Source: Schwartzia sp. (in: firmicutes) (GTDB taxonomy: Bacteria; Bacillota; Negativicutes; Selenomonadales; Selenomonadaceae). From it: a stretch of DNA of 34,589 nt. A program made the translations under genes and the position numbers. The DNA lies in the NCBI GenBank assembly GCA_017444395.1, contig JAFSWT010000067.1, forward strand, positions 1-34,589, in the 5' to 3' direction. The stretch's first letter is position 1, and each line of letters opens with the position of its first letter. The notes under the pieces were generated by a model. The model was not told the DNA's origin and did no database searches. It saw only the letters and a list, made by a program, of their open reading frames with translations. Positions 21,477 to 24,046 of this stretch are shown piece by piece.

Positions 21477-22421
21477 CTAACGGACGAAAACCACCGCCGT
21501 CTGGTCGAGGAAATGGGTTTTCTGGTTCTCGGTGAGCAGCAGGTTCGCGTCGTTGACGGTGATGACCGGGTTGAAATAATGGTCAACGCCGACGGCACGG
21601 AGGATCAGCGGATTCGAGCCGGCCCGGGCAACCTTGCTGGTGAGGTCCGGGCTGTAGCCGGCCATGCCGTTGTGGATGACTGTCTTGGAGTCGAGATTCT
21701 TGTAGCCGTAAATCTTCTCGCCCGCCGTGGTCTTGATGACGGGGGACATGGCGGTACGAAGGCCGAGGCCGGTGCAGTCGATGATGACGCCGGTGTAGGG
21801 GCCGCCGTTATTGCTATACGTGGGCTGATAGACAGGGGGCGCCGGCACGGACGGGACGGAGGGAACAGACGGGATAGACGGGACAACGGGCGGCGCCGTG
21901 GTCGTGGTGGTCGTTGTCGTGGTCGTCGTGGTCGTCGTCGGGGGCAGCGCCGAGTAGGGGTTTTCCTCGGGCTCCGGCTGCAACGTCGCCGGGAAGGGGT
22001 CACGCACCGCGGTTTGCGGCAGGACAGCCGAGGCCAAAGAGGAGATGCTGCCGAACAGGGGCACCGCCATGACGACATGGTAGGAACCGTCGGATTCATA
22101 GCTTTCACGGACGATGGTCGCGCCTTTGATGAGGGCCGAGACCCGCGTGGTCACGACGTCGCTGGCGAGCTGCAGTTCACGGACGGTGGTCTCCGAGGTG
22201 ACCTGGACGCCGCTGAGTTGCTCCGCCAGATTGCGCTGGGCGTCCACGATGGCGGCCCGGCGGGCGGCCAGGCGGGCCTGGGCCGGGAGCGCCGCGTAGG
22301 TGGGCGGCAGGCCGAAGCCGTCCGCCTCGACCCGGTTGGCGTCGAAGTTCGCCGCGGCGAAAGCGGTGGCGGACAGTGCCAACAGGCAGAGCAGGGTAAG
22401 CAGCAAGAATAATTTTTTCAT
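21477..22421 (-). CDS. Exported LPP20-like protein with polythreonine linker
   Basis: The 314-residue protein has a signal peptide (hydrophobic 4-20, probable cleavage after AFA at 22, no lipobox cysteine). A domain at about 45-125 (AARRAAIVDAQRNLAEQL through SYHVVMAVPL) resembles the LPP20/FlgT-N fold. A low-complexity linker has 14 consecutive threonines (T162-T175) and PSIPSVPSVPSVP repeats, and a C-terminal domain (about 207-314) of unknown kind follows. The linker suggests two globular parts held apart outside the inner membrane. AAGGAGGAG serves ATG 22421. It is the second gene after the FlgT-like gene (32-base gap), and the two N-terminal domains look related. Function unknown. Confidence 0.8.
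   Translation of the reverse strand: MKKLFLLLTLLCLLALSATAFAAANFDANRVEADGFGLPPTYAALPAQARLAARRAAIVDAQRNLAEQLSGVQVTSETTVRELQLASDVVTTRVSALIKGATIVRESYESDGSYHVVMAVPLFGSISSLASAVLPQTAVRDPFPATLQPEPEENPYSALPPTTTTTTTTTTTTTTAPPVVPSIPSVPSVPSVPAPPVYQPTYSNNGGPYTGVIIDCTGLGLRTAMSPVIKTTAGEKIYGYKNLDSKTVIHNGMAGYSPDLTSKVARAGSNPLILRAVGVDHYFNPVITVNDANLLLTENQKTHFLDQTAVVFVR
21897..21938 (-). repeat. 14-codon threonine tract inside the LPP20-like gene
   Basis: Fourteen consecutive ACN codons (minus strand), mixing ACC, ACG, ACA and ACT-type third bases, encode T162-T175. The three-base periodicity could allow in-frame expansion or contraction of the linker by slippage, though the mixed third bases would lower the rate. 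Confidence 0.85.
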
Positions 22422-22453
22422 GGTTTCTCCTCCTTTTTTTCATTCCGGCCGCA

Positions 22454-23557
22454 TCAGATGCGGATGTATTCGGAGTTCATCTCCCGGATTACCACGCCTT
22501 CGCGTTCCAGCGCCTGGGCCAGGTCGTAGGCGGTGCCGTTGTAGTTGACATCAATCTGCATATTGCCGCCCTGGGCACTGCGGACATAGATGTTGTTGAC
22601 ACCGTCAAGACGGCTGAGCCAGCCGTAGGCCTCGGACATGGTTCCCAAAGCGTTGTTGGTCACCAGGATGGTTACGTGCTGCTCCGGGTTTGCCGCTTTC
22701 TTCAGCGCCCCCCGGGACAATGCCTTGACCAGATCCTTCGCTGCCTTGCGCAGAGCCGCACGGGCCGCATCGCTTCCGCTCCGTGAAGAGTGGGCGTCGA
22801 AGGAGCCGGCGTAGGCGATTTCGCCGGTGTTGGCGTTTACCATGCGAACGGAGATGGTCACATCCGCTTTGGAGTAGCCGATACCGCCGAAAACCGGGAT
22901 AACCTGTTCCAGGACCGAGGACCAGTCGTTGCTGGCGACTTCCACCAGCCCGGTCACCAGATAATCCACGTTGAAATGGGACTGGAGCATCTGCACCAGG
23001 TCCTCGTCGCCCTCGAATACCGCGTTGGCTATGCGGTTCCTGACGGAGGCGTCAATCTGGTTCATATCGACGATGCGCATGAAGCCGTTATCCTGGAGGC
23101 TGGCCATCACCAGATTTTCGATGGATGGGTTTGAACTGCGGTCGTGGGCGTTGATGAAGAGGACTCCGATGCGCGGATCCTGCATATTGGCGCTGACGAG
23201 GGCTCTTTTCTGCAGGTGCGACATCAGATCGGTATTCAGGAGGTCCGAGCTCACGTTGGCGCGGATGGTGACGGAGTAGATAGCGTTCGCGTAGCTCTGG
23301 CTCAGGATCTGGTAGCCGTTGATGTAGCCCTCGGAGTGAGTGAAGATCTTGTCGCTGATTACGCGGTAGTTCTCTACGTAAGTCCGGCTGTCGATGAGTA
23401 CGCCAACCTCTTGTTCAATGGCCTGCCGCATGGCATTGTGCAGGGCGTCCCGCTCTGTGGCGCCCTGTCCCGTTGCCGTGACCGTGCCGGCCAGTGCCGT
23501 CGCCACCGTACACAGGAGCAGAAGGGCCGTCAGCCCAAGGGCTCGGATTGTTCTCAT
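22454..23557 (-). CDS. Exported FlgT-like protein
   Basis: The 367-residue protein has a signal peptide (hydrophobic 7-20, probable cleavage after ALA at 23). Three domains follow: an N-terminal FlgT-like domain (about 24-105, GQGATERDALHNAMRQAIEQ through YSVTIRANV), a middle CsgG/TolB-N-like domain (about 129-285, IGVLFIN... VDYLVTGLVEV ... ADVTISVRMV) and a small C-terminal domain (294-367). FlgT builds the H-ring of the Vibrio flagellar motor, but this fold is also seen in outer-membrane proteins unrelated to flagella, and no flagellar gene is present here. A role in an envelope assembly spanning the periplasm is inferred. GGAGG supports ATG 23557. It is first in a two-gene unit with the LPP20-like gene. 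Confidence 0.78.
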   Translation of the reverse strand: MRTIRALGLTALLLLCTVATALAGTVTATGQGATERDALHNAMRQAIEQEVGVLIDSRTYVENYRVISDKIFTHSEGYINGYQILSQSYANAIYSVTIRANVSSDLLNTDLMSHLQKRALVSANMQDPRIGVLFINAHDRSSNPSIENLVMASLQDNGFMRIVDMNQIDASVRNRIANAVFEGDEDLVQMLQSHFNVDYLVTGLVEVASNDWSSVLEQVIPVFGGIGYSKADVTISVRMVNANTGEIAYAGSFDAHSSRSGSDAARAALRKAAKDLVKALSRGALKKAANPEQHVTILVTNNALGTMSEAYGWLSRLDGVNNIYVRSAQGGNMQIDVNYNGTAYDLAQALEREGVVIREMNSEYIRI

Positions 23558-23683: not shown

Positions 23684-24046
23684 TCATGATTTGTCGCCGC
23701 CATTCGCCGGCTGTCCGGCGCAGGCCGCCAGCTGCGGTATGTTCTTCATGTCCGCCGCAAACAGCGATTCCATGTTCTCCCGGAACTCGTAGTACAGACA
23801 GTCGGAATCGTAGCGCCAGGAGCTCCCCTCCAGCCCGTCGGCCGTTGGCGTACGATAGTTGAGGGTGATGAGGAATTCATCGTCAGCATCCTCCTGCAGC
23901 CGGAACTCGGCTTCAATGACGCCGCATTGCAAAAAGCCCAGCCGGCCCTCCGTGAAATAGTCGTCCATGCGGGATTCGACGATGATTTTGCGCATTTCCC
24001 GGAAAGAATCCTCCGTAAACCTTGACCAATCGAAATCCATGATCAT
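23684..24046 (-). CDS. Small acidic protein of unknown function
   Basis: I do not recognise this 120-residue protein. AAAGGAG five bases ahead of ATG 24046 and a TATAAT further up (24082-24087, minus strand) support it. It is acidic, with no signal peptide or membrane segment. The sequence alternates predicted helix (residues 5-30) and strands (LGFLQCGVIEAEFRL; EFLITLNYRT), and a C-terminal helix contains two alanine-rich turns and one cysteine. It stands alone on the minus strand, 126 bases from the FlgT-like gene. Co-transcription with the latter is possible because no clear terminator intervenes. Confidence 0.65.
   Translation of the reverse strand: MIMDFDWSRFTEDSFREMRKIIVESRMDDYFTEGRLGFLQCGVIEAEFRLQEDADDEFLITLNYRTPTADGLEGSSWRYDSDCLYYEFRENMESLFAADMKNIPQLAACAGQPANGGDKS

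Follow-up and report, generated by a model that had tools for sequence, protein, structure and literature searches.

An exported FlgT-like and FlgP-like protein pair independent of flagella, a candidate envelope scaffold of Selenomonadaceae

In the window (the whole analysed stretch of 34,589 nucleotides, from a Schwartzia-like Selenomonadaceae genome of a rumen diderm Firmicute), a two-gene unit encodes the exported proteins P1 and P2 (Table 1). These proteins bring together known folds in a new combination, as a coupled pair that is uncoupled from flagella: among the genomes that we compared, P1 is always accompanied by P2, and the pair is independent of flagella. From their domain composition and by analogy with flagellar rings, the chances are about even that the two proteins serve as core subunits of a periplasmic, non-flagellar scaffold located under the outer membrane and similar to the H-ring or the basal disk.

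Table 1. Features of the P1-P2 unit (window positions) and examples of the F2 gene in related genomes
Feature	Position	Strand	Description	Basis
P1	22454..23557	-	367 aa, transcribed first, exported, FlgT-N/M-like	ORF; CsgG PF03783 4.6e-6; AF2 model
P1 signal peptide	23489..23557	-	aa 1-23, TALA|G, SPase I type, no lipobox	
P1 SHS2 (FlgP / FlgT-N / LPP20) domain	23186..23488	-	aa 24-124, hairpin insert and C-terminal helix	
P1 middle domain, TolB-N/PelC/CsgG/FlgT-M fold	22688..23185	-	aa 125-290	Pfam and fold matches
P1 C-terminal beta-alpha-beta-beta-alpha-beta domain	22457..22687	-	aa 291-367	model
P1-P2 spacer	22422..22453	-	32 nt, with a strong P2 Shine-Dalgarno, GGAGGAG	
P2	21477..22421	-	314 aa, exported, FlgP domain, linker and Tp0624 D2	ORF; LPP20 PF02169; FlgP 9hmf_C
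P2 signal peptide	22356..22421	-	aa 1-22, AFA|A, SPase I type, no lipobox	
P2 FlgP/LPP20 SHS2 domain	22059..22331	-	aa 31-121, with hairpin insert	profile match to FlgP
P2 Thr/Pro linker	21801..21953	-	aa 157-207; length varies among relatives	
P2 C-terminal domain, Tp0624 D2 homologue	21480..21800	-	aa 208-314	5jir_B
Intrinsic terminator hairpin 3' of P2	21399..21443	-	-32.2 kcal/mol, z -7.0	
F2, example 1	L085:4762-5652			
F2, example 2	L082:8207-9073			
F2, example 3	L091:7006-7851			
F2, example 4	L087:6048-6983			

The initial annotation had described two signal-peptide proteins encoded back to back with their own terminator. Both reading frames and both SPase I type signals were recovered, and the stability of the hairpin found after P2 was equalled in 0 of 200 shuffles, so that the terminator holds as well. 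The neighbouring genes have housekeeping functions (NAPRTase, MGMT, HhH-GPD, CysRS, an RNase III-like protein, ThyX, a SpoU methylase and an arginine cluster). As had been noted, a flagellar or curli context is missing: a scan of 20 window proteins revealed no such gene, and no pore, barrel or polysaccharide gene was present among the neighbours scanned in the window. This lack of flagellar context concerns the neighbourhood but not the organism, as the Selenomonadaceae-like genome carrying the window (G000, 79% complete) possesses FliG (contig C90) and FlgI (contig C155) elsewhere. Its close relatives include Schwartzia succinivorans DSM 10502, with a P1 59% identical and a P2 about 66% identical. 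Upstream of P1 and on the same strand, a 120-aa open reading frame (23684-24046) gave no Pfam match; it was rejected as a conserved upstream gene, since it shows no similarity to the S. succinivorans gene at that place. A comparison with PHROGs gave no useful match.

In P1, the Pfam CsgG signature (PF03783) covers aa 219-290 and part of the profile, with 26.5 bits for a cut-off of 20.8, while the FlgT_N and LPP20 matches both fall below their cut-offs and FlgT_C (PF16538) gave no Pfam match. A profile of 28 P1 relatives aligned with Campylobacter jejuni FlgP (9hmf_C; E 3e-7) with no gap in the SHS2 domain. The AF2 model of P1, based on seven sequences, is of moderate quality (pLDDT 65), the hairpin being its weakest part. 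From aa 24 to 124, the model presents a strand, a helix, a hairpin, two strands and a helix, followed by an alpha/beta domain (aa 125-290); the strands at the hairpin insert (64-67 and 70-73) are predicted with low confidence. The C-terminal domain is modelled with a pLDDT of 69-82, and its ferredoxin-like sequence matches are weak (E 0.1). Using Foldseek, the best PDB match of this model was Vibrio FlgT (3w1e; E 4e-9), with LpoB also among the matches. A second structural aligner covered two domains of FlgT with residues 24-289 (Z 13.4), and matched the middle domain with PelC (Z 12.5), TolB (Z 11-12) and CsgG (Z 9-11.6). The large rmsd to one FlgT entry indicates that the domains of P1 are placed differently relative to each other. 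P1 thus corresponds to the N and M domains of FlgT with another C-terminal domain. The FlgT-like assignment and the CsgG/TolB-N-like domain that the initial annotation had proposed for the first protein are thus borne out, the former by the structure prediction that it had called for.

In P2, LPP20 (PF02169; E 5.2e-6, 27.2 bits, cut-off 25.9) was the sole Pfam domain found, in line with the LPP20-like assignment made at first. The match with FlgP (9hmf_C) reached 2e-12 with the single sequence and 9.6e-26 with a profile of 31 sequences, gap-free over the SHS2 domain. The AF2 model of P2, based on five sequences, was discarded as unusable (pLDDT 37). The extended Thr/Pro linker was correctly described; it contains 14 Thr plus Pro, and its Thr codons are mixed (ACG/ACC/ACA), showing that it is not a DNA microsatellite. 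In contrast, the C-terminal domain that follows was wrongly taken as new. The C-terminal part of the P2 profile matches Treponema pallidum Tp0624 (5jir_B; E 6.4e-10 over 122 profile positions), and this match falls on the D2 domain (domain limits of PMC5104382), so that the C-terminal domain of P2 is already known structurally, although absent from Pfam and NCBIfam. In 2016, D2 was a fold without relatives, and no D2 had been found without D1 (PMC5104382). Both Tp0624 and P2 present a smaller alpha/beta domain ahead of D2, but P2 ends with D2 and does not possess the C-terminal OmpA-like domain of Tp0624 (5jir; PMC5104382). A D2-like domain is also encoded alone, as an exported protein (L126:3072-3500, L127:3040-3468, L128:3696-4127 and L129:3122-3619).

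P1 and P2 had been described as apparently related in their N-terminal domains, and a profile-profile comparison identifies these as homologous (probability 98.9, E 1e-17), with 31% identity across 108 columns. Ring formation in the FlgP/FlgT family is correlated with the presence of an insert that separates the SHS2 helix from the second strand and that both FlgP and FlgT possess (PMC12222027). As P1 and P2 align without gaps with FlgP over this insert, both carry the ring-correlated hairpin, and a lateral assembly would be expected. Their export signals are predicted to be cleavable Sec signals of the SPase I type. No lipobox was found in P1 or P2, and none was convincing among their relatives; the LPP20-type lipoprotein status is therefore not retained. 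FlgP itself is a lipid-anchored lipoprotein.

We then compared the gene content of 100 genomes (G000 plus relatives), with a threshold of E < 1e-10 for the presence of P1. P1 was found in 44 genomes and P2 in 59. P2 accompanies P1 in all 44 genomes and in 29 out of 29 genera (Fisher test, P = 1.5e-15), even when the genes are encoded at distant places (split loci). The distance matrices of P1 and P2 are correlated (r = 0.78, 0 out of 2000 permutations as high), which partly reflects a shared species history. Neither gene is associated with flagella (Fisher test, P = 0.29 for P1 and P = 0.09 for P2; P = 1.0 within family). Using FliG, FlhA and FlgI as flagellar markers, six genomes possess P2 with none of the three detected (G008, G011, G023, G039, G056 and G089), and five of them also carry P1, G023 having P2 only; conversely, P2 is absent from 31 flagellates. 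The strict co-occurrence with flagella that the initial annotation had named as a refutation was thus not seen. With FliG alone, eight P2 genomes appeared to be flagellum-less, two of which (G027 and G057) were reassigned to the flagellates because FlhA was found in both, and FlgI too in G057. Moreover, P2 is under purifying selection in a genus without detected flagellar genes, with a dN/dS of 0.08 between two species of genus g11. Secretin co-occurrence was also considered as a link with type IV pili, and was uninformative, secretins being found in 95 of the 100 genomes.

In many Negativicutes, P1 or P2 adjoins the gene of an exported protein, F2, with CsgG, FlgT_M and FlgT_C Pfam signatures, and several loci present the order F2-P1-P2 (L085, L095, L133, L136, L082 and L091). 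F2 matches CsgG (1.9e-19), its relatives also match Pfam LpoB, and F2 is homologous to the middle domain of P1. A homology of F2 with FlgO was rejected, as Pfam gives FlgT_M, FlgT_C and CsgG but not FlgO. F2 was not found in the 79%-complete G000, the window lineage presenting P1-P2 only. The FlgT_C part of F2 also matches TsaP (5.6e-14), a secretin collar protein. G029 has several P1/F2 copies, one of which (L125:4713-6679) is separated by metabolic genes from a flagellar operon about 8 kb downstream of it (FliF at L125:16067-17656).

The presence of flagellar-ring modules together with their persistence in bacteria without flagella makes a scaffold on the outer-membrane side probable. After Sec export and cleavage of the signal peptides, the SHS2 domains of P1 and P2 would probably polymerise laterally by means of the FlgP-type beta-hairpin insert. 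The resulting arcs or rings would lie against the outer membrane on its periplasmic side and possibly serve as an envelope scaffold or anchor. P1 would contribute a FlgT-M/TolB-N/PelC-type domain, whose fold is found elsewhere in rings or docked on outer-membrane complexes, and the D2 domain of P2, on its flexible Thr/Pro tether, would probably extend to a partner or the cell wall. F2 (CsgG/FlgT_M plus FlgT_C) may be the third subunit completing the set in many relatives. The scaffold is favoured by the gap-free homology with FlgP over the insert, by FlgT being the best structural match of P1 across two domains, by the restriction of P1 to genomes with P2, by the correlated distances, by the adjacency of F2, by the lack of association with flagella and by the low dN/dS. 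Conversely, P1 and P2 lack the lipobox of FlgP, so that their placement at the outer membrane is inferred only; the distance correlation is in part shared history, the P1 model is moderate, that of P2 unusable, and F2 was not found in G000. SHS2 and TolB-N folds are also known from proteins without ring assembly, which weighs on the same side.

It is conceivable, though rather unlikely, that P1 and P2 are soluble periplasmic adaptors or regulators of the TolB or LpoB type, contacting peptidoglycan enzymes or outer-membrane proteins, with SHS2 as a mere interaction module and no rings. TolB-N is a close fold match of the P1 middle domain, LpoB appears both in Foldseek and among the Pfam matches of F2 relatives, some of the big clusters described below encode peptidoglycan hydrolases, and the missing lipobox fits such adaptors too. 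However, the ring-correlated hairpin is kept in both proteins, and the same two folds make rings in FlgP and FlgT (PMC12222027), PelC and CsgG. We regard it as improbable that the pair represents flagellar accessories of Selenomonadaceae, i.e. an H-ring or basal disk encoded away from the flagellar operons. The closest characterised homologs are indeed flagellar, G000 has FliG and FlgI, and the G029 copy is near a flagellar operon, although separated from it by metabolic genes; against this stand the six genomes that lack all three markers but carry P2, five of them with P1 as well, the 31 flagellates without P2, the absence of any association within the family and the window scans, in which flagellar genes were not found.

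P1 might also be a PelC- or CsgG-like collar of a system exporting polysaccharide or protein across the outer membrane, but this is improbable. The PelC dodecamer and CsgG are both matched by the P1 middle domain, and F2 resembles CsgG and the secretin collar TsaP. Among the scanned neighbours, however, pore, barrel and polysaccharide genes were not found, P1 has no lipid anchor, and secretins are so widespread in the 100 genomes that the pair is not tracked by them. More generally, P1 and F2 share the fold of the CsgG/PelC/TolB-N/LpoB group, but P1 is neither a predicted lipoprotein nor located beside curli, Pel or Tol genes.

The scaffold reading can be compared with the flagellar structures that it resembles. 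P1 and P2 share the SHS2 domain and hairpin insert of C. jejuni FlgP (basal disk, 9hmf; PMC12222027), but they are non-lipoproteins with extra domains and are also found without flagella. The order and the fold of FlgT-N and FlgT-M in Vibrio FlgT (H-ring; 3w1e, 8z5n) are those of P1; both proteins are periplasmic (P1 by its signal peptide) and neither is lipidated. Unlike FlgT, P1 has a different C-terminal domain, FlgT_C being carried by the separate protein F2 or absent, and it is not tied to flagella. No paper linking LPP20 or FlgT with Negativicutes was found in the literature searched.

The H-ring and the basal disk are regarded as torque-raising inventions of the flagellum. If the scaffold exists, they would gain a non-flagellar relative, a widespread set of the same modules that selection maintains as a coupled pair in bacteria lacking flagella, and their origin would become testable. 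The envelope of diderm Firmicutes, which is poorly known, would also gain a structural element. More tentatively, the pair could belong to a FlgP/FlgT-type outer-membrane ring machine without flagella, sister or source of the H-ring and basal disk, in which case the flagellar rings would have been recruited from a general envelope scaffold. The homology of P2 also offers a route to the function of the orphan D2 domain of Tp0624.

Finally, larger clusters (L077, L081, L084, L131, L132, L135 and L138; e.g. L084:3582-13975, L077:4036-17229 and L081:3019-17101) contain further exported proteins around P1, F2 and P2 paralogs. They share the conserved, uncharacterised families F10, F11 and F12, and some encode NlpC/P60 or M23 peptidoglycan hydrolases, ricin-type lectins or dockerin domains. 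In one of these proteins (L084:11343-12887), a CsgG domain is fused to type I dockerin repeats, which is unusual in a ring-type protein of the periplasm or outer membrane.
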